This document shows, piece after piece, positions 5,431-48,676 of a DNA stretch of 64,000 nt. Source of the stretch: Paracoccus aminophilus JCM 7686 (GTDB lineage: Bacteria > Pseudomonadota > Alphaproteobacteria > Rhodobacterales > Rhodobacteraceae); assembly GCF_000444995.1 (NCBI RefSeq), contig NC_022041.1:2702001-2766000 (forward strand), read 5' to 3'. The position numbers were made by a program, and so were the translations under genes. Under the pieces are notes generated by a model. It was given only the letters and a program-made list of their open reading frames with translations, did no database searches and was not told the origin of the DNA. Each line of letters opens with the position of its first letter. Position 1 is the first letter of the stretch.

Positions 5431-5504
5431 GCGGGTGTAGCTCAATGGTAGAGCAGCAGCCTTCCAAGCTGAATACGTGGGTTCGATTCCCATCACCCGC
5501 TCCA
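5431..5504 (+). tRNA. tRNA-Gly(UCC), prophage integration target
   Basis: A 74-base cloverleaf including the encoded CCA. The acceptor stem GCGGGTG pairs with CACCCGC, the D arm is GCTC/GAGC, the anticodon loop CTTCCAA gives anticodon TCC, and the T arm GTGGG-TTCGATT-CCCAT is standard. The 3' half from base 5458 onward is repeated exactly at 48714-48761. The gene at this end is therefore intact, with its 3' half supplied by the prophage. Confidence 0.97.
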
Positions 5505-11841: not shown

Positions 11842-13101
11842 TTAAACTCCTCGCACATGAAACCACATCTGGTTAAGCAGAATGCCATCACTATGAGCCA
11901 CAAGCCGCCAAGTGCCGGGTCCTTGCACTTGTGCCCCTATGGAAAAGCTGCAAAAAACGGATAATGAGGAACCTTCCGGTTGCGGCACTTCAACTGCAAT
12001 CCGTGCTTTCTCGAAGTTGTCGTGTACCAAACTCACAAATATGCCAACCTGCTTTTCAAATTGCTCCTTGAAAGAAAATAAAGCTATGGCATTGACCACG
12101 AGATCAAACGGAAAATTTCGGATGTCTATCCAACTCCAGCCAATTCGGTTGACCGTGGGCAGTCCTCTGTCGATCTCTGCCCCATCGTGCAACGCAAGGC
12201 AATTTACAGAAAATCCGGAATCTAAATGTTCTGCTTGTACGGCCATAACATCGTCAGTGAAATAACTGTCGCCAGACATTCCACCTAGAGCTAAGTCTCC
12301 GAATAAGTAAACTTTTTCGCCCTCACCAAGCCTTTCTATGTAGGTTGGCTGGCCGAACTCTCCTGGCAATCGAGAACCTCGCCCTACGACTATTTGAAAG
12401 CTTCCCGCCGGCAACGACCCTTCAACGAAGTGTATGTCCCCGCCATCGCCGCCACGGCCACCTACGGCGCTTTCGCCGAGAGCCCCCTCACCCGCGCCGC
12501 CAGCGCCATATGGGATATCAAAAAGATTCCCAAAAAACTCTCTGTCCCAACGCTCTAATGCAGAAGGGTCTACAAGAATACCATTCTTGAACACACTTCC
12601 ACCATTTCCGCCTGCTCCGCCACGCGCGTTTGTCCCGATAGCTCCCCCTCCGCCTCCACCTGCACCCGGCGCCATCCCACCGATACCACCAAGATTAACA
12701 TTCTCAGCTATAATCTCGATGTTGCTAGATTGGATTGCGATCAGATCATCAGGCCCAAGCAGGTTATCGCCTTGAAGCTCCTGAGCTTCTTTCCATCGCC
12801 TCATTTCTTGAGCAGTGTAAATATCATCAGCGCCGGGTTCGTCGACCCAAGCGTGGTGTTTTCGGCACAGCAAGATTAAATTGCTATCGTCTCGGTTTTC
12901 CGCTTCAGTCTGTGATGAATCCCACCTCGCTCCGTTTTCGCTACGGGCGCAAATGTGACACACTTGAGAATTGGAGATTTTTTTCCCCGTCCGATCGTCG
13001 AATTCAATGTGGCGCTCGATGCACTTAGGGAAACCACAGTGCTGGCTACTCCCATAAAGCCTGTAAACAGTCGCGGCGGTGGGCGGTGCGTGTGATGTCA
13101 T
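11842..13101 (-). CDS. HNH-type nuclease fused by a glycine-rich segment to a C-terminal beta-rich domain; candidate defence effector
   Basis: A 419-residue protein with three visible parts. Residues about 20-105 form an HNH-like domain with zinc-type cysteines (C22, C27, CHIC near 48-51) and NLILLCRKHHAWVDEPGAD containing the H-H pair. Residues about 130-235 are glycine-rich (GGMAPGAGGGGGGAIG, GGAGGNGG, GGRGGDGGD), suggesting a flexible or repetitive linker. The last 130 residues (FPFDLVVNAIALFSFKEQFE onward) read as alternating beta strands, reminiscent of DUF6941-type domains, and may be a sensor. The codon use is AT-richer than in host genes, a sign of transfer. The gene stands alone, transcribed leftward, in prophage cargo. 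A nuclease-effector role in phage defence is inference. Confidence 0.7.
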   Translation of the reverse strand: MTSHAPPTAATVYRLYGSSQHCGFPKCIERHIEFDDRTGKKISNSQVCHICARSENGARWDSSQTEAENRDDSNLILLCRKHHAWVDEPGADDIYTAQEMRRWKEAQELQGDNLLGPDDLIAIQSSNIEIIAENVNLGGIGGMAPGAGGGGGGAIGTNARGGAGGNGGSVFKNGILVDPSALERWDREFFGNLFDIPYGAGGAGEGALGESAVGGRGGDGGDIHFVEGSLPAGSFQIVVGRGSRLPGEFGQPTYIERLGEGEKVYLFGDLALGGMSGDSYFTDDVMAVQAEHLDSGFSVNCLALHDGAEIDRGLPTVNRIGWSWIDIRNFPFDLVVNAIALFSFKEQFEKQVGIFVSLVHDNFEKARIAVEVPQPEGSSLSVFCSFSIGAQVQGPGTWRLVAHSDGILLNQMWFHVRGV

Positions 13102-14138: not shown

Positions 14139-14219
14139 TCAGGGGCGGTTTTTTCCGCCCCTTATCAGCCCCCAGAGCAGCGCAGCCAGCACTGCGCTGG
14201 CTAGCAGCACCGCGATCAC
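14139..14219 (-). CDS. 26-residue membrane peptide at the end of the lysis cassette
   Basis: A GTG start overlaps the stop of the preceding small membrane gene (GTGA), with GGCGGGG just upstream as ribosome site. The product is a single hydrophobic helix (VIAVLLASAVLAALLWGLIR) with a basic tail GGKNRP. Coupling and composition suggest a lysis accessory (holin partner or regulator), but at this size a chance frame cannot be excluded. The 3' end overlaps an inverted repeat at 14141-14162. Confidence 0.4.
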   Translation of the reverse strand: MIAVLLASAVLAALLWGLIRGGKNRP

Positions 14220-14425
14220 GTCGCCCCGCCTTTCTTCTTGGCGACACGCGACCAGATCACGGTCGCCGCATAGATCACGAGCCCCGCGAGAACGACAGCG
14301 AGGTCGTTCAGATAGACGGTGAGCGTGCCTGTGGCCTCGTCGAAGCTGACGAAGCCAAGCGCGGTCAGCGCGCCGGCCAGCGGGTAGAGGATGTAGCGGA
14401 TAATCAGAGCAATTTGTCCGAGCAT
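14216..14425 (-). CDS. Small two-helix membrane protein, holin-like
   Basis: A 69-residue protein with two predicted membrane helices (about 5-27, IALIIRYILYPLAGALTALG; about 38-58, LAVVLAGLVIYAATVIWSR) and a basic tail RVAKKKGGAT. AAAGGA lies about nine bases before the ATG. It directly follows the endolysin gene and precedes the 26-residue peptide. Size and topology match class II holins or antiholins. A second holin candidate lies on the other side of the endolysin, so one may be the holin and the other a regulator or spanin-like partner. Confidence 0.7.
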   Translation of the reverse strand: MLGQIALIIRYILYPLAGALTALGFVSFDEATGTLTVYLNDLAVVLAGLVIYAATVIWSRVAKKKGGAT

Positions 14426-14445: not shown

Positions 14446-15078
14446 TCAGAGGGTGGAGAGTTCGCGGGAGACGAGATCGCGCAGGCGATCGCCCACGCTG
14501 ATCGGATCAGCGGGACCGGCCATGCCGGGCAGCACCGTGATGTCCCATTTGTTTTTCTGGACCACGCCGAGGCTCGGCTGGATTTCAGCATGAGAGAGCG
14601 TGGACCAGCGCGACACCGGAATGTCGTAGATCCGGCACAGCCGCGCGGTCTCGCGCGCGAGAGCTGAGACCTGCACCGGCAGGAGCGGGGCCCGGCCCCA
14701 GACGAACGGGCGCTCATTGGCGCCGGCCATGGCGCAGATCGAAAGACCGATCGCGCCGCCATTGGCATTGAGCGTATGCGTGCGCTGCGTCGCGGGATCG
14801 GCCAGCCAGCGCACCTCACCATCGCCGAGGATCAGCGCATGATAGGCGGCGATGGCCTCGGCGCTGGCGGCATAGCCGCTCGCGGCCCAATGCCAGTGAA
14901 TCCGGGTGACCCCGCTCGGATGCAGAAACGGCAGGCCCCGCGCCTTCTGGGCGGCCAGTGCCGCCGCATAGGCCGCGCGGGTCCGGTTGCCATCGATCCC
15001 GTCGATCGGGCCCGGCCAAAAGCCTAGGGCAGCGCAGCGCGCCTGCCGCGCGCGCACCGTGTTCATGACTGCGGTCAT
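14446..15078 (-). CDS. Endolysin, N-acetylmuramoyl-L-alanine amidase-like with peptidoglycan-binding start
   Basis: A 210-residue lysis enzyme. The N-terminus carries a peptidoglycan-binding-type helix set (RQARCAALGFWPGPIDGIDGN, about residues 10-30). The rest resembles an Amidase_2 fold, with IHWHWAASGY near 60 holding the first zinc-binding histidine, YHALILGDGEVRWL, and AIGLSICAMAGANERP. It should cut the amide bond between muramic acid and the stem peptide. No signal peptide is seen, so it needs a holin. AGGAGAGAGAAC precedes MTAVMNT; the open frame to 15324 runs antisense through intergenic DNA and is rejected. Flanked by small membrane genes on both sides. Confidence 0.85.
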   Translation of the reverse strand: MTAVMNTVRARQARCAALGFWPGPIDGIDGNRTRAAYAAALAAQKARGLPFLHPSGVTRIHWHWAASGYAASAEAIAAYHALILGDGEVRWLADPATQRTHTLNANGGAIGLSICAMAGANERPFVWGRAPLLPVQVSALARETARLCRIYDIPVSRWSTLSHAEIQPSLGVVQKNKWDITVLPGMAGPADPISVGDRLRDLVSRELSTL

Positions 15079-15096
15079 GTTCTCTCTCCTGAAATG

Positions 15097-15118
15097 AAAA
15101 AACCGCCCGGAGGGGCGG
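15097..15118 (-). terminator. Hairpin plus T-tract just before the endolysin ribosome site
   Basis: On the minus strand CCGCCC-CTCC-GGGCGG is followed by TTTTTT, then the AGGAG of the endolysin. It looks like an intrinsic terminator or attenuator inside the lysis operon. Confidence 0.7.
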
Positions 15119-15142
15119 CAGCGTGTGGGACAGGCAAGGCGG

Positions 15143-15439
15143 TCAGCGCCGCCAATGCTTCCAGAGATCGATGGCGTTTTTCGGATCATCCACAGCCAAG
15201 AGCAGCCAGCGCATGACGCCTTCGGCAGTGAGCGTGACAACGGCACCGGCGACCGGCACGGGAACGCCAAGGGTTTCTGCAGCCCAATCGGCCCCGACCC
15301 AGGCCGCGCCGACAGCAACAGCAATCGTGGTGATGACCTTGAGAGGGCCGAGCTGCGCTGTGGTCTTGATCTTGACGATCAGCGCGATGGCGATCGCCAC
15401 CCAGAACTCGGGCGAGCGGAAAGACGACGGGTCTGTCAT
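15143..15439 (-). CDS. Putative phage holin
   Basis: A 98-residue protein with two to three hydrophobic helices (about 12-25, FWVAIAIALIVKIK; about 33-55, KVITTIAVAVGAAWVGADW; about 62-82) and a charged C-terminus (DDPKNAIDLWKHWRR). Size, topology and position next to the endolysin are those of a holin, which would form membrane lesions at the end of the lytic cycle. Terminator-like hairpins lie both upstream (15457) and downstream (15097), so it may be expressed from its own signals. Confidence 0.75.
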   Translation of the reverse strand: MTDPSSFRSPEFWVAIAIALIVKIKTTAQLGPLKVITTIAVAVGAAWVGADWAAETLGVPVPVAGAVVTLTAEGVMRWLLLAVDDPKNAIDLWKHWRR

Positions 15440-15456
15440 TGCGCCTCATACAATAA

Positions 15457-15479
15457 GAAAAGCCGCCTCAGCGGCGGCT
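15457..15479 (-). terminator. Rho-independent terminator between the Septu pair and the lysis genes
   Basis: On the minus strand AGCCGCC-GCTGA-GGCGGCT is followed by a TTTTC tract. It lies 40 bases after the HNH gene stop and just before the holin, and would insulate the defence pair from the lysis genes. Confidence 0.8.
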
Positions 15480-15518
15480 CCGATCAGTGCTTGAATGTTA
15501 AGTCTATACATCGACCAG

Positions 15519-16217
15519 TTATGTCAAAACTTCCGGATCAGGGATCGCAAGCAAACTTTTCACCATATGAACATAAGACTTGGCAGCGCCCCCCTCATCC
15601 ACTTGTGAATACCCTTCTGAAAATTCTAAATAACTTCTACCCGGCTGTTGAACCATCTCATCAACGACAGATTCCCACGTAGCCCGCCGGTACGACTTCA
15701 AATTCTCATCATTCAGATTGAGAATCTTTATCATATACTCTGCCTGCACGTCACCTTCTCGACAAAAGATCTCTCCATCTTCATGGAAGGAAAACCTTCC
15801 GGAGCAAACATCCAACTCAGGCTCCAGGCACCGCTCCTCATCAAACGCACCCGCCTTAGACGCTCCACAAATTTCTCCGCTTGGTTCATCGCCCGATTCG
15901 TAGAGCCCACCACAGCTCAAGAAAAGATTAGAATGCTCGAATATAAGATCGCGATATTCAGGAACGTGCCGAGGTCGAAAATGCTCAATGTGAAACGCAA
16001 ACTTTCCGGCAAACCTTTCCGGATTAACTATGGGAAGGTTTATATTTATCCTACCGCCACAATATACACAAAGTCCACTCTGCTCGGACCACAGGTCTCG
16101 CACTAGTGCTCTCTTCACTACAGAGTCCAGCGTCTTCCAGACAGGGCGTCGCCCTGCGTTAGCCTCCCGCCACTCAGATAGCTCTAGTGTCGGATCACCC
16201 TTTGCGCTTCCCCTCAT
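15519..16217 (-). CDS. ptuB: HNH nuclease of a Septu-type pair (PtuB-like, TIGR02646-like)
   Basis: A 232-residue HNH nuclease. The zinc-type cysteines CVYCGGR (C50, C53), the HIEHFRP motif (H76, H79) and NLFLSC (N97, C102) are the pattern of the TIGR02646-like HNH partners of ATPases. In Septu systems PtuB is the nuclease and PtuA the ATPase; some retrons use a similar pair. The start shares one base with the ATPase stop (TGATG; a GTG one codon earlier is also possible), so the two are translationally coupled. AT-richer codons than the phage genes around it indicate separate origin. Substrate and trigger cannot be read from the sequence. Confidence 0.85.
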   Translation of the reverse strand: MRGSAKGDPTLELSEWREANAGRRPVWKTLDSVVKRALVRDLWSEQSGLCVYCGGRININLPIVNPERFAGKFAFHIEHFRPRHVPEYRDLIFEHSNLFLSCGGLYESGDEPSGEICGASKAGAFDEERCLEPELDVCSGRFSFHEDGEIFCREGDVQAEYMIKILNLNDENLKSYRRATWESVVDEMVQQPGRSYLEFSEGYSQVDEGGAAKSYVHMVKSLLAIPDPEVLT

Positions 16218-17311
16218 CACGAAGCCGATCTTTTTCGCGCCATATCCAACTGCAACTGCATTCGACTTATTATAGGCGCATCTCCTTCGATTATATCCTT
16301 CAGAGCATCAACACGAAACTGCGCGTCTGCAAACCGTTTCTGCTTAATTAATTCAATGACTTCATCTATCTGCGCAGCGGCCTCCGGCGCCCTTTCGTCA
16401 GCATCCATCAAAGCCTCGAGAATAAAATTACTATCAACCCCCATCGTTGCCTTAGGCACCGAAACCTTGATATCGCCGTTATCAGATAATGCCAGAAGGC
16501 GAACACAACGCCCCTCAACACTCCCAACAACCTGTGGCGAGTGAGTGGTCACGACAAACTGAACGTCGGGGAATGCCTCCCTTAATAGGGGCACAATTGT
16601 TCGCTGCCATTTGGGGTGTAGGTGAAGGTCGATCTCATCGATCAACACCAAAACCAATGGCCGACTGTATTCCTCGCTCGATAGCGCCACCCGCCGAGCG
16701 ATCATGCCAAATAGAGAGAAAACAGACCTCTCACCTGAAGATAGTTCGTGCCACTTCATTTTAACGCCTGAGCGCTCGAAGGCCATTGTGTTGCCAGCAG
16801 AGTAAACTTTCACCCCCTTGAAAGCTTCCACCCTAGCCAGCGCCTCTTGGAAAACCTGCAACTGGGGATCCTTTACAGTGAGATCTCCAGAATCTCGCAC
16901 GGCACGTGCATGAGCGATATCTCGCTCATTCCACCACGCGACAAAACCATCTGAAGAAAATGTGGTTTCGTCCATTTCTGGTCCATTCTCTCCCCCCTCT
17001 CGCCGACCGAATAAAAGCACAGTTTTTACGCCCCTTGACTTCGTCCCTGGGCGAATTCCGATGCTCAAACTTTGCAACTTTTGGCGCCTGAATTCGGCGG
17101 AACCGTATTCAGTTAACTTATCCGCCAATATACGAAGAATGGTTGTTTTACCTACGCCATTCTGTCCGGCGATAACTGTAATATCTGGCTCAAAGTGCAA
17201 GGTAAGATTCTGGACTCTTCCAACTTGGCCATACACCTTCAGTGAGGCAACCCGGGGGACGGGGTAGCCAGATACCTCCTCTTCAAAAAAAACCTTTTCC
17301 TGCCCTGACAT
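16217..17311 (-). CDS. ptuA: AAA/ABC-type ATPase of a Septu-type pair (PtuA-like)
   Basis: A 364-residue ATPase. Walker A is GQNGVGKTT (49-57), the ABC-type signature is ELSSGERSVFSLF near the middle, Walker B is LVLVLIDEIDLHLHPKWQ, and FVVTTHSPQVV holds the switch histidine. This is the OLD/AAA_21-like architecture of PtuA. MSGQEKVFF is taken as start because GGGGGCAAGAG precedes it; the frame extends 39 codons further without a better site. It forms an operon with the HNH gene. Located between tail fibre and lysis genes, in the late-gene direction, with a 14-bp palindrome (17354) upstream that may mark its own control. Retron alternatives are less likely as no reverse transcriptase is near. 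Confidence 0.87.
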   Translation of the reverse strand: MSGQEKVFFEEEVSGYPVPRVASLKVYGQVGRVQNLTLHFEPDITVIAGQNGVGKTTILRILADKLTEYGSAEFRRQKLQSLSIGIRPGTKSRGVKTVLLFGRREGGENGPEMDETTFSSDGFVAWWNERDIAHARAVRDSGDLTVKDPQLQVFQEALARVEAFKGVKVYSAGNTMAFERSGVKMKWHELSSGERSVFSLFGMIARRVALSSEEYSRPLVLVLIDEIDLHLHPKWQRTIVPLLREAFPDVQFVVTTHSPQVVGSVEGRCVRLLALSDNGDIKVSVPKATMGVDSNFILEALMDADERAPEAAAQIDEVIELIKQKRFADAQFRVDALKDIIEGDAPIISRMQLQLDMARKRSAS

Positions 17312-17353
17312 CTCTTGCCCCCGTGATTCGCAGCGCTTTCTTAGGAGCAAGTG

Positions 17354-17367
17354 TAGCGAATTCGCTA
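17354..17367. promoter_or_regulatory. 14-bp perfect palindrome upstream of the ATPase gene
   Basis: TAGCGAATTCGCTA reads the same on both strands. It lies 43 bases before the ATPase start, in the short gap after the tail fibre gene, and could be an operator for an independent promoter of the Septu pair. No protein is assigned to it. Confidence 0.4.
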
Positions 17368-17424
17368 GGCCTGAAGGAAGTCGGCACATGGAGCCAAAGC
17401 ATGAGACCATTTGTGCGAAGCTTT

Positions 17425-19398
17425 TCATACGATCGGCACCTCGAAGGAATGCATTGGCCGATAGACCGGCAGGCCGGTGATCGGGCCGGTGCCCTGCCAG
17501 ACCTCGCGGATCGAACCCGCCGCGGTGACATAGCGCGTGTCGACCTCGCCCGCATTCGGGCGGCGATAGACATATTGCAGCCGGGCCGAGCTGTTCGGCG
17601 TGCCCGAGAGGCTCAGGGTGATCTCGCGATCCCCGGTTTGCTCAACCCCGGTGATTGTGGCGCTGTCGTTCGAGAGGCTGAAGCCAAAATGCGGATCGAG
17701 CGGCACCATGCCCCGGTCGATCATAATCGGCGTCAGGCTCTCGACCGCGAGGATCACCTTGTTGCCGAGCCCTGCCGCGCGCTCACCTTTGGGAAAGGCA
17801 CACCACCAGGGCAGGCCCGCAACGTGGTTGCGATAGGCAAAGGCATCAATCTCGCGCAAACGGACCTGCGACAGATAGGAGGTGTGGATATGATCCTGCG
17901 TCCCGCCGCGCGCCGTGCCCATCGGCAGGTGATAACGCGGCCCGACATCGACCACTTTATGACCCGCCAGGCGCGCCTGTCGCATCAACTCGCGCAAAGC
18001 GTATTTGACCTGCCAGTCGCTACCAAACGCGGACATGGCTGTGGTGCCGCCCGGAATATCGACCAGCCAGACCACCGGCAGGCCGGTGAACGCCAGATCA
18101 GCCTCGATATCGGCCATGTAGCCGAGCCCGTCAGCCGTATAGGTCGCCCACGGGTCGCGCCGGTTGGTCTCGCCATGGGTGAAGGCGATCACGATTTCCG
18201 TGGGCGGAACCGGGGCATAAGTCATCACCGCTGTCACCCACTCGATCATGCGAATGCGCTGGGGCGCGGGCGCCCCGGAGGGAAGCACCTTCCAGATCGC
18301 AAAATTCGGATCGGTCGCCGTGAATCCCGCGCCGCCGCGCCCATGACTGCCAGCGTAGATCACCCCGGCCCCGCGCGGATCGAGCGCGTTCGACGCCGAA
18401 GCCAGGGCCTCGGCCGAGGATTGGACGCCGGTGATCTCGGCGGGCACAAAGCCGGTGATCGCCTTGCCCGGAGGTTGACCATTCCAGCCCCGCAACGCGC
18501 CGAGCTCGCCGACACCATCATTCGACATCAGCACGAAGTCAGGCGTTTTCGCTGGAATATAGAGCGGAGGCCCCTCCATCTCAGAAACAGCCGCATTGGA
18601 CTGCCCGAGCACCATGAAAATCGCGACACGGGACGGCAGCCAGTGCCATGCCCCGTCGCCGCCGACCGTATAGCGCGCCGCAGCGCCGATCCCGGCATCG
18701 CCAACCAGCTGGGTTACGCCGCCGACGCGGCGCGGCAATAGGGTCGCCGAGGCGGGCAAGGGCTCGGGGGGCGTATAGCCGCCGCCCGAGCCGCTGCCCG
18801 AGACCGTGGCCAGCGCGGCCTGCATCTGGGCGAAGGTCGGATGATCGCGGGCGACCCAGTCCGACGACCACCGCAGGATCCACCATTGGCCAGAGGCGTC
18901 TTTCTTGAAGTCATCGGTCTCGATCCCGTTGCCCGGCGCGCCGATGGTCGCCCAGATCGCTGCGCCGGAGGCATTGCCCTTGACCGCCCAGATCACCTTG
19001 GCCCCGACCGGGACCGTCGCTCCAGAGGGGTGCAGGTTGTTCGAGATGATCCGCTTGACCTCACCGTCGCGCATCTCATCGAGGATGGCCGAGAGCGAGG
19101 CGACGCGGCGCCACCATTGCCCATTCGCATCCGGGCGCAGCGTCGCGGTCAGCACCCCGTCAGACGGGGCCGAGGTCCGCGCCCAATCCGCCGTCTCGGT
19201 CCCGGCAGAGCGATTGACCGTGATCCGCTGCGTCCCGGTTGGTGGATTGGCCCCGTCAATCGTCAGGCCATTGCTCGCATATTGCCAGACCCGGCCAGAG
19301 CGCAGTTCGGAGGTGTCAGCCTTGGCCGCGAGATCACTCTCGATCGACGTTGTCGAGAACGTGCGCCCCCACCATTGGCCGGTCGCATCCTGAACCAA
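17425..19398 (-). CDS. Tail fibre/receptor-binding protein with SGNH-type esterase domain, C-terminal part (apparent frameshift)
   Basis: Frame of 657 codons from a TTG; protein-like sequence continues upstream of it in this frame (RLGSTSGGATDV), so it is the downstream part of a longer gene whose N-terminus is at 19263-19910. Residues 1-220 hold repeats of about 60-70 residues with the pattern LRSGRVWQYASNGLT... PPTGTQRITVN ... DANGQWW. From about 255 an SGNH/sialate-esterase-like domain begins with VAIFMVLGQSNAAVS (Ser nucleophile), with GSHGRGGAGF and FTHGETNRRDPW later. The enzyme may remove acetyl groups from surface polysaccharide during adsorption. Whether the break is real or an assembly error is open. 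Confidence 0.8.
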   Translation of the reverse strand: MVQDATGQWWGRTFSTTSIESDLAAKADTSELRSGRVWQYASNGLTIDGANPPTGTQRITVNRSAGTETADWARTSAPSDGVLTATLRPDANGQWWRRVASLSAILDEMRDGEVKRIISNNLHPSGATVPVGAKVIWAVKGNASGAAIWATIGAPGNGIETDDFKKDASGQWWILRWSSDWVARDHPTFAQMQAALATVSGSGSGGGYTPPEPLPASATLLPRRVGGVTQLVGDAGIGAAARYTVGGDGAWHWLPSRVAIFMVLGQSNAAVSEMEGPPLYIPAKTPDFVLMSNDGVGELGALRGWNGQPPGKAITGFVPAEITGVQSSAEALASASNALDPRGAGVIYAGSHGRGGAGFTATDPNFAIWKVLPSGAPAPQRIRMIEWVTAVMTYAPVPPTEIVIAFTHGETNRRDPWATYTADGLGYMADIEADLAFTGLPVVWLVDIPGGTTAMSAFGSDWQVKYALRELMRQARLAGHKVVDVGPRYHLPMGTARGGTQDHIHTSYLSQVRLREIDAFAYRNHVAGLPWWCAFPKGERAAGLGNKVILAVESLTPIMIDRGMVPLDPHFGFSLSNDSATITGVEQTGDREITLSLSGTPNSSARLQYVYRRPNAGEVDTRYVTAAGSIREVWQGTGPITGLPVYRPMHSFEVPIV

Positions 19399-19910
19399 AA
19401 CATCCGTCGCGCCGCCGCTCGTCGAACCCAGTCGGCCTGGCCAGATCCGGTCGTCTTATGCACCGCGATCATTTGGGTGCCGGTCGGGGGCGTAGCGCCC
19501 ACCGGCGTCAGGTCATTGCGGGCATAGCGCCAGACCCGGCCATTGGGCAGATCGGTCTCAACGGCCGAGACCCGCGCCTTGATCGCCGGCGTATCCTCGG
19601 AGAGATACCACCACGCGGCATCGGCGGTCTGGGCATGGATCGCCGGATTGACCGGGTTCGGAGCCGATCCAAGCCGACGCCAGTTAAAGGTCCCGGAGTT
19701 ATTGGCGACGATGATCTGGTTCGTGCCGGGCGGCGGGGTCTGCGCGGAGAGATTGGTGCTCGAGCTGTGCCAGAGCCTGCCATTGCGCAGATCCGTGAGC
19801 TCAGCATTCGTGCCCGTCTGCATCTCCGTCATCCAGGTCCGGATATCGGCCTTGGGCACAGCGGAGCCATTCGGGTAAATCGCACCCGGCGTCTTGGTCG
19901 TCGTGACCAT
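19263..19910 (-). CDS. Tail fibre protein, N-terminal part (frameshifted from 17425-19398)
   Basis: A 215-codon frame starting MVTTTKTPGAIYPNGSAVPK, a typical tail-fibre N-terminus. It contains two of the repeats seen in the downstream frame (LRNGRLWHSSSTNLSAQTPP; LPNGRVWRYARNDLTPVGAT). Up to GSGQADW (about 19425) the sequence follows the repeat; after that it turns into arginine-rich translation, while the neighbouring frame takes up the repeat as RLGSTSGGATDV. The last 45 codons here are therefore probably out of frame. One intact ancestral gene 17425-19910 is inferred. Confidence 0.75.
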   Translation of the reverse strand: MVTTTKTPGAIYPNGSAVPKADIRTWMTEMQTGTNAELTDLRNGRLWHSSSTNLSAQTPPPGTNQIIVANNSGTFNWRRLGSAPNPVNPAIHAQTADAAWWYLSEDTPAIKARVSAVETDLPNGRVWRYARNDLTPVGATPPTGTQMIAVHKTTGSGQADWVRRAAARRMFWFRMRPANGGGARSRQRRSRVISRPRLTPPNCALAGSGNMRAMA

Positions 19911-47424: not shown

Positions 47425-47732
47425 TGGTTTCGAGTCTCGAGCAGGCCGCAGCGACCACCCTGACCCTGTTGACACCTGCCGAAGCCGCGAGGGCGCTGCG
47501 GATTTCTACGAAGACCCTACAACGCCTGCGAAATCGCGGCCTGCCTTTTGTGATGTTGACCAGCGGGACGATTCGCTACCGCCCGGACGATCTCACAAAC
47601 TTTATTGAAGGACATACCGAATGCCGCACCGCCCGAAAGGAACGCGCTTCTGGCACTACGACTTCCAAGTCAGGGGTCTTCGATTTCATGGCTCTTGCGG
47701 CACAGAAGACTATGAAGAGGCCAAGGCCGTAG
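47424..47732 (+). CDS. Excisionase-like HTH_17 protein
   Basis: A 102-residue protein. LLTPAEAARALRISTKTLQR followed by LRNRGLPFVMLTSGTIRYRP is the HTH_17/MerR-type fold of phage excisionases, which bend att DNA during excision. The start overlaps the methyltransferase stop by one base and the 3' end overlaps the integrase start by 112 bases, so Xis and Int are coupled. The C-terminal 30 residues overlap integrase in another frame and may be dispensable. Confidence 0.8.
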   Translation: MVSSLEQAAATTLTLLTPAEAARALRISTKTLQRLRNRGLPFVMLTSGTIRYRPDDLTNFIEGHTECRTARKERASGTTTSKSGVFDFMALAAQKTMKRPRP

Positions 47733-48676
47733 AGGCTGCTGAGCGGGTCAAGGCACGCAATGCCCCAGAGGTAACTGGACGCTTCAGCATTTCTCAAGCG
47801 CTCGGGACCTATTGGACGGATGTTTGTCAACACCAACCCAGCGCCCGGACTGCCCGCAGCCAGGCAAAAATGATCCTGAGCGTCATCGAGGGATCGCAAC
47901 AGATGGACGAGATCACCAATGCCAGTCTGATGCGCTATGTCGCGATGCGCCGAGCAACCGTGTCGAATGCCACCGTGAACCGCGAGCTTCAGATGCTGGC
48001 TCGATCGATGCGCCATATGGTCAGCATCCACGGGGCAGAGATGCCAAAGATCGATTTCAAGACAGTTCAGACGGCCGAGCCAGAAGAGCGGGTGCGTGAG
48101 CTTACGCCCGAAGAGCAAAGCAAGCTCTTTAAACATCTGAGGCCTGATCTGGGGCCCTTTGTGACCTTTGCCCTTCTGACAGGCGCCCGCCTTTCGACAA
48201 TCACGGAATTGGAATGGTCTCACATCGATCAGGCAAACAAGCGGATGATGTTTCACCTCAAGGGTGGCGGCACCATGAAATTCCCGATCAGCAAGGAGAT
48301 CGCCGCTCTGCTGGCAGATCTTCCGAGGTCAGAGCTCCCGGATCACTCTCGCTATGTCTTCACCTTCGAGGTTCAAAACCGGAAAAATCAGCGGCGCAAG
48401 ATCGTTCCGAACGGTGGAGGGATCATGGAAGAGTTTCGCGCGGCCCTAGCGGCAGCGGAGATCCACGACTTCAGGTTTCATGATCTGAGGCATACCTTTG
48501 CCACCCGCCTGCTCAGGCACACCGGCAATCTCAAACTGGTCAGCCGCCTGCTTGGTCACAGCAACGTGGAAACGACAGCGCGCTATGCACATGTGCTCGA
48601 CAATGATCTCGCCGACGCCCTCGACAGTGTCAGCATGATGGGGGTTTCCCGAAGAAAGTCCCGAAGAAAGCAGTAG
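47621..48676 (+). CDS. int: Tyrosine-type phage integrase
   Basis: A 351-residue site-specific recombinase. An N-terminal arm-binding part (RPKGTRFWHYDFQVRGLRFH), a SAM-like core-binding domain (about 65-150), and the catalytic domain with Arg in LLTGARLSTITELEWS, HDLRHTFATRLL (His and Arg), LVSRLLGHSNVETTARY (His and the nucleophile Tyr). It integrates the phage into the 3' half of tRNA-Gly(UCC), 38 bases from attR. The last codons (SRRKSRRKQ) are encoded by the tandem 12-bp arm-type repeats. Confidence 0.96.
   Translation: MPHRPKGTRFWHYDFQVRGLRFHGSCGTEDYEEAKAVEAAERVKARNAPEVTGRFSISQALGTYWTDVCQHQPSARTARSQAKMILSVIEGSQQMDEITNASLMRYVAMRRATVSNATVNRELQMLARSMRHMVSIHGAEMPKIDFKTVQTAEPEERVRELTPEEQSKLFKHLRPDLGPFVTFALLTGARLSTITELEWSHIDQANKRMMFHLKGGGTMKFPISKEIAALLADLPRSELPDHSRYVFTFEVQNRKNQRRKIVPNGGGIMEEFRAALAAAEIHDFRFHDLRHTFATRLLRHTGNLKLVSRLLGHSNVETTARYAHVLDNDLADALDSVSMMGVSRRKSRRKQ
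48647..48670 (+). repeat. Tandem 12-bp repeats near attR, probable integrase arm-type sites
   Basis: TCCCGAAGAAAG at 48647 is repeated exactly at 48659. They lie in the 3' end of int, 44 bases from the attR core, and match the pair at 5606-5629 beside attL in sequence, order and 12-bp period. Confidence 0.72.

Follow-up and report, generated by a model that had tools for sequence, protein, structure and literature searches.

A probable stand-alone Septu gene pair with a compact PtuA at the variable fibre-lysis junction of a Paracoccus aminophilus prophage

Why does a prophage of Paracoccus aminophilus JCM 7686 carry an ATPase gene and an HNH gene resembling an anti-phage defence pair between its tail-fibre and lysis genes, and does this pair serve the host, the phage, or neither? 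Paracoccus aminophilus is a soil bacterium, and the window analyzed here consists of 64,000 nucleotides of its chromosome, starting at chromosome base 2,702,001. The pair is located in prophage phiPam-5 (vB_PamS_Pami5), which has been placed at 2,707,458-2,750,713 of the chromosome, with tRNA-Gly(TCC) as the site, and a tyrosine recombinase as the agent, of its integration (PMC6536676, Table 3), and which corresponds to window positions 5458-48713. ARAGORN detects a tRNA-Gly(tcc) at 5431-5504, and the frame at 47621-48676 is probably the integrase, as judged by its position and look. Tail genes, lysis genes, and the pair share the minus strand, in agreement with an initial interpretation made from the letters alone (the sequence-only reading), which had placed the pair in a prophage and in the late-gene direction. 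A word search of the main texts of PMC6536676 and PMC3925955 found no description of ptuAB there.

The ptuA-like gene (16217-17311, minus strand) codes for a compact ABC/AAA_21 ATPase of 364 amino acids and is directly followed, in a single operon, by the ptuB-like gene (15519-16217, minus strand) coding for a TIGR02646 HNH protein of 232 amino acids; both open reading frames, their strand, and the motifs quoted earlier were found as described. In PtuA, the motifs GQNGVGKTT, LSSGE, LIDEIDLHLHP, and TTHSPQ are found at residues 49, 190, 223, and 255, and the key residues are K55 of Walker A, S191-G193-E194 of the signature, D225-E226 of Walker B, and H257. The Walker A, signature, Walker B, and H-loop residues are conserved across 38 aligned PtuAs, as in ABC-type ATPases. 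PtuB contains the motifs CVYC, HIEHFRP, and NLFLSC, and its HNH and cysteine residues (C50, C53, H76, H79, N97, and C102) are invariant in 15 of 15 aligned sequences, its own included. The start of ptuA is at 17311; with an alternative ATG in the same frame, at 17428, the protein would be 39 residues longer, and this extension is unlike the N-termini of aligned relatives. For ptuB, ATG 16217 is most likely the start, with relatives beginning MRGS, MKGS or alike, and GTG 16220 would give a protein of 233 amino acids. If ATG 16217 is used, ptuA and ptuB consequently overlap by one base (TGATG). Among 18 genome loci with related PtuBs, 13 show an exact 4-nucleotide overlap of the PtuA and PtuB frames. 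Of the remainder, two have frames that are longer or otherwise overlapping, one has only a fragment of PtuA, one lacks a full PtuB frame, and at one a PtuA was not found.

Profile searches with both proteins bear out the earlier assignment to Septu, as the PADLOC models match far above chance (PtuA 3.5e-72, PtuB 4e-34). Nine Pfam families match PtuA, with AAA_21 at the top, and no Pfam family matches PtuB, which is recognized by the NCBIfam model TIGR02646 (68.5 bits, cut-off 52.15). The closest relatives in a sequence search of the PDB are PtuA and PtuB proteins from Septu and from retron I-A. Models for retron I-A match as well (PADLOC ATPase_I-A 3.8e-58, HNH_I-A 4.9e-25), as would be expected if the pair were the orphaned effector half of such a retron, whose reverse transcriptase and msr-msd had been lost or lie elsewhere. 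This origin is very improbable. The Septu models score better than the retron I-A models, and the two NCBIfam equivalog models for retron Ec78 effectors, NF041760 (PtuA, 184.6 of 500 bits) and NF041761 (PtuB, 80.8 of 150 bits), remain under their curated cut-offs. PDB chains named retron PtuA or ATPase are 542-550 amino acids long, except one of 456, compared with 364 for the ptuA product. The profile search for RVT_1, which was positive in 3 of 14 control genomes, gave no match in six of the nine replicons (chromosome, pAMI1, 4, 5, 6, and 8; 4,873,118 bases in six contigs), and no retron RNA was found in Rfam at the gathering threshold, where the single match was a tRNA. Since RVT_1 was not found in the replicons searched, the suggestion that the genes might be retron effectors is abandoned, and as judged by its profiles, motifs, and gene overlap the pair is a Septu and not a retron.

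The PtuA of phiPam-5 is shorter than its relatives. It comprises 364 residues, compared with 401-514 in the 33 aligned non-compact PtuAs, and the distance from Walker A to the signature is 136 residues; among the 38 aligned PtuAs, five have a distance of 129-154 residues, and 33 have one of 185-261. The five compact PtuAs form one clade (100/98), which stays (100/99) in a tree from which the long-branched P0016 was dropped and to which P0136 was added, P0004 and P0136 also being flagged as long branches whose exact place is unsure. We know of no PtuA length that serves as a defining feature of Septu, and the compact PtuA, in which the core motifs are kept, is treated here as a Septu variant whose assembly may differ from that of the longer PtuAs. 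Two database searches covering 5.8 billion proteins, in which scoring was limited to the 8000 or 7999 candidates with the most shared words and the best 120 of each were considered, contain at least six compact members among the matches listed, and among these matches the clade looks rare. A profile of the compact form detects, at E 1e-60, only the own genome in a class-wide sample of 385 genomes. PtuA matches at 1e-20 occur in 5 of 295 sampled genomes of the family, the own genome included, and the others show 31-36% identity. Loss of a possible Q-loop glutamine was considered as a mark of the compact clade and rejected, as two retron PtuAs also lack it there.

With regard to the neighbouring genes, the pair had been described as lying between the tail fibre and the holin. 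The first half of this description holds: directly upstream of ptuA lies the C-terminal frame of the tail fibre (17425-19398, minus strand, 657 amino acids), for which the PHROG tail-fiber match is only 1.2e-4. Downstream, the place given to the holin is taken by a gene for 98 amino acids (15143-15439, minus strand), the first after the insert and in the position of the lysis module, which has no Pfam or PHROG family at 1e-3. It is followed by the endolysin frame (Amidase_2, 14446-15324, minus strand), whose true start is probably further downstream than 15324, and the Phage_holin_10 protein of 69 amino acids (Pfam, 14216-14425, minus strand) comes after the endolysin. In the annotated phage Pthi1, a putative holin gene and hypothetical genes are located between large tail genes and the amidase gene.

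A search with the endolysin reveals five further copies of the lysis region on the chromosome, situated inside the published prophages Pami1, Pami2, Pami3, Pami4, and Pami6, and ptuAB is absent from the fibre-lysis junction in all five, so that the interval, proposed earlier as a cargo hot-spot, proves to be a variable cargo site. In Pami2 (L027) and Pami3 (L029), DNA comparison shows about 40 bp from the fibre gene to the gene for 98 amino acids, and a terminator-like site there comes immediately behind the fibre stop. Pami6 (L025), Pami4 (L026), and Pami1 (L028) have another small-ORF family in place of that gene, the small ORFs of Pami6 and Pami4 being 40% and 50% identical to the 104-amino-acid ORF of Pami1, and the distances between matched blocks are 680 bp, 1252 bp, and 1677 bp, respectively. 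Pami1 carries there a DUF3800 gene for 280 amino acids (L028 7557-8399, minus strand; PF12686, 2.7e-14), antisense to the late genes, which has no PADLOC match. Across the six prophages, the junction thus contains Septu once, DUF3800 once, other sequence twice, and is empty twice. Because the five siblings have this junction empty or differently filled, ptuAB is an insert, and comparison of the five gives the picture by which morons and defence hotspots are recognized, namely a varying insert between two conserved phage genes. That the two genes are instead a structural or tail-associated core pair of the phage, as their position among late genes might suggest, is ruled out by the siblings that lack them at the junction, in addition to which the Septu profiles are matched and a search of the genome gave just one more PtuA match, a weak one confined to residues 17-97 (E 1.1e-4). 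The insert boundaries both carry the 6-bp sequence GTATGA as a direct repeat (left 17425-17430, overlapping the fibre stop, and right 15446-15451, minus strand), which is suggestive only as a mark of target duplication. An exact 16-mer from the right boundary is found in viral_contigs only in phiPam-5 itself and in two unrelated contigs.

Codon composition also marks the pair as foreign to phiPam-5. The GC content of ptuA and ptuB is 0.50 and 0.49, compared with 0.61-0.68 for six other genes on the same strand, and the AT-richer codons noted earlier are confirmed by GC3 values of 0.501 and 0.466, compared with 0.658-0.826 in 25 chosen other genes of the prophage, a set that leaves out one HNH_2 gene that looks like a second insert and is as low as the pair (GC3 0.474). 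The latter gene (11842-13101, minus strand) codes for 419 amino acids, has its HNH_2 domain at the N-terminus and also a stretch rich in glycine, and matches PADLOC PDC-M68A (1.6e-19) and HNH effector models. It lies in an interval of 2479 bp, which measures 817 bp in Pami6 and Pami3 and is identical between these two, and it is likely a second cargo of phiPam-5.

Taken together, the observations make it probable that the pair is cargo of the prophage, i.e., a moron, between fibre and lysis genes, and that it forms a stand-alone Septu (PtuAB) module with a compact PtuA, directed against phages. Whether such a module has its own promoter was raised by the sequence-only reading, in which it appeared as a self-contained cassette with a palindrome upstream and a terminator downstream. 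A palindrome and a terminator-like hairpin are indeed present at these places. The leader between the fibre stop and the ptuA start (17312-17424, minus strand) contains the palindrome TAGCGAATTCGCTA at 17354-17367, perfect over 14 bp and found at a single place in the searched genome; when the leader is shuffled by mononucleotides, 45 of 5000 versions also reach this length, and 12 palindromes of 14 bp or more occur in the window. Behind ptuB, an intrinsic-terminator-like hairpin with a T tail, GGAGCCGCCGCTGAGGCGGCTTT (15459-15481, minus strand), matches the consensus; the 3-kb stretch has six terminator-like sites where shuffles give 3.4 (sd 1.6), so that any one of them taken alone carries little weight. 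Consensus and relaxed scans, which do not cover all alphaproteobacterial promoters, find nothing in the leader above shuffles, as the observed scores for three consensus forms are reached by 241, 490, and 317 of 500 mononucleotide shuffles, and the scans thus give no sign of an own promoter for ptuAB; an unusual or regulated promoter in the leader is possible. A structured leader RNA was discarded (fold z 0.14 for the window). Between fibre and ptuA no terminator-like site was found, and the site at the fibre end of the siblings is missing here. With no promoter signal above chance in the leader and no terminator-like site in this gap, the notion of a self-contained cassette gains no support. 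The missing fibre-end terminator together with the hairpin after ptuB suggests that ptuAB seems to be part of the fibre transcription unit. Transcription of ptuAB would then come mainly from read-through from the fibre or late unit, and expression in the lysogen would be at most weak.

Such an arrangement raises the possibility that PtuAB acts late in the lytic cycle of phiPam-5, for instance against sibling phages that infect or are induced at the same time, whose tRNA or DNA it would cleave, and does not defend the lysogen. We regard this alternative as possible but on balance unlikely. It is favoured by the place of the pair, which follows the fibre in the late direction behind a leader without a promoter above chance, and by a second compact pair in the same place. 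Readable context is available for two compact members only, the window and locus L048, part of the 38-kb viral contig IMGVR_UViG_3300026299_000092. L048 encodes a compact PtuA of 384 amino acids and a PtuB (36% identical) directly after a tail-fibre gene on the same strand, and ptuA starts 121 bp after this gene, which matches seven PHROG tail-fiber families (best 1.3e-10), its top PHROG match overall (1.2e-14) being to a family without known function. The fibres of L048 and phiPam-5 show no significant match to each other, the central tail proteins are 24% identical over part of their length, and the contig stops at PtuB. Around the fibre-ptuA gap of L048 the scans found no promoter- or terminator-like site, and the leader there is as little structured (fold z -0.49). 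Read by eye, a frame of about 40 codons (L048 7783-7911) fills this gap and overlaps both ends by ATGA. Against late action by PtuAB stand the incomplete coverage of the promoter scans, the split fibre frame of phiPam-5, and its failure to appear among induced prophages, with which its late genes may not work.

The position behind a tail fibre was compared with that of other viral PtuAs. Of 60 viral PtuA loci left after removal of duplicates, 58 are distinct from the window phage and L048, and 40 of these 58 have an annotated neighbour. None of these 40 has a tail fibre upstream; the upstream neighbours are integrase (5), methyltransferase (2, best family unknown in both), reverse transcriptase, anti-repressor, and transcription regulator (2 each), portal or head protein (2), replication, ParB-like or DNA polymerase (3), Abi or superinfection exclusion (2), tape measure and endolysin (1 each), families of unknown function (10), and genes with no match (8), in a survey based on longest-ORF picks in which seven loci took the larger of the last two ORFs and not the adjacent small one, some neighbours are on the opposite strand, and 18 of 40 lack an informative match. 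Among the 18 other loci, 14 have an upstream gene for 309-363 amino acids, as long as a retron reverse transcriptase would be, and in the remaining 4 the stretch contains no gene upstream. Two loci with a gene of that size (L060 and L066) match reverse transcriptase families, and the sixteen loci with such an upstream gene (within L052-L071) look like retron I-A. Several of the loci L052-L071 have downstream genes of about 340 and 588 amino acids on the opposite strand, by size P2-like phage genes. The two compact loci are a small sample and may share ancestry.

The state of phiPam-5 itself has to be considered as well. Its fibre gene is split into overlapping frames (19263-19910 and 17425-19398, minus strand), whereas the fibre is a single open frame of 837-838 codons in Pami2, Pami3, Pami4, and Pami6, so that intact copies exist in the siblings; the split may mean that phiPam-5 is defective, or may reflect a sequencing error or a frameshift site. 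In JCM 7686, phiPam-6 is inducible by mitomycin to visible particles and is the sole prophage reported as induced (PMC3925955), and late expression of phiPam-5 may therefore not occur. By the same observation, any PtuAB made in this strain does not fully stop phiPam-6. The split fibre and the lack of induction would fit decayed or silent cargo in a degenerate prophage, an explanation that we judge unlikely, as both frames are fully open and the catalytic motifs and the gene overlap are kept.

Could the compact PtuA sense the fibre encoded next to it? Statements in PMC10884400 and PMC11364771 hold that Septu recognizes the tail fibre, and Septu is listed in a table of PMC10286901, which has Stokar-Avihail et al. 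2023 among its references, as one of the systems that mutations in structural proteins bypass. In the case of a different Septu, cells were not killed when the tail sheath was co-expressed, and the sheath is not thought to be the trigger (PMC13096335). Compact Septu might accordingly be imagined as a phage-borne sub-type coupled to the tail-fibre gene, whose sensor would read the fibre protein and guard against foreign versions, the place in the fibre unit tying immunity, self-tolerance, and dosage to the own fibre. We consider this improbable. The C-terminal 437 amino acids of the phiPam-5 fibre are 97-98% identical in the five siblings, and because these siblings lack PtuAB at the junction, a specific match between PtuAB and the fibre allele of its own phage becomes less likely. 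That phiPam-6, with a fibre C-terminus 98% identical to that of phiPam-5, is alone induced in JCM 7686 also counts against a simple self-matched pair of PtuAB and fibre.

As a stand-alone Septu, the pair would function along the lines of other Septu systems: PtuA would be held inactive until it senses an infection cue, activated PtuA would license PtuB to cut nucleic acid, and this cutting would stop the infection; for different PtuABs, the reported targets are tRNA of the host or DNA of the phage. Mutations in Walker A or Walker B of PtuA or in the H-N-H residues of PtuB abolish defence by Septu EcB88, which cleaves tRNA-Tyr (PMC13096335), and targets are described as varying between PtuAB systems (PMC11555353). 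H79 and N97 of the phiPam-5 PtuB would be equivalent to H75 and N91 of EcB88. Six related prophages in one chromosome, one with Septu at the fibre-lysis junction and five without, offer a ready comparison, and this junction can now be named as a cargo site. From the shorter PtuA one could learn which regions of the ATPase its assembly and sensing require, and a Septu that lies immediately after a fibre gene makes it testable how a prophage escapes its own immunity.

Compared with known systems, the phiPam-5 pair is closest to the Septu of 8EE4/8EE7/8EEA, chains which we take to be stand-alone Septu, with which it has in common an ATPase and an HNH protein, an overlapping operon, the conserved motifs and residues, and the lack of a reverse transcriptase (for phiPam-5, in the replicons searched); it differs in the length of PtuA (465 amino acids in 8EE4) and in its place behind a phage fibre gene. 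The PtuAB proteins of retron I-A (Ec78/Eco7, Ec83/Eco4) are homologous ATPase and HNH proteins, but their PtuA has about 550 amino acids, and the phiPam-5 pair has no match to a reverse transcriptase or msr-msd in the searches made and scores below the equivalog cut-offs. In P2 and P4 hotspots, small variable loci lie between conserved phage genes, and Septu is named in prophage hotspots of Vibrio and Bacillus (PMC9122126). Defence genes borne by a prophage are common to phiPam-5 and to Tab (PMC10884400), Tai (PMC11364771), and Tha (PMC11087260), but whereas Tab is described as antisense and with its own promoter (PMC10884400), ptuAB lies on the strand of the fibre gene, with no own promoter found in the scans.
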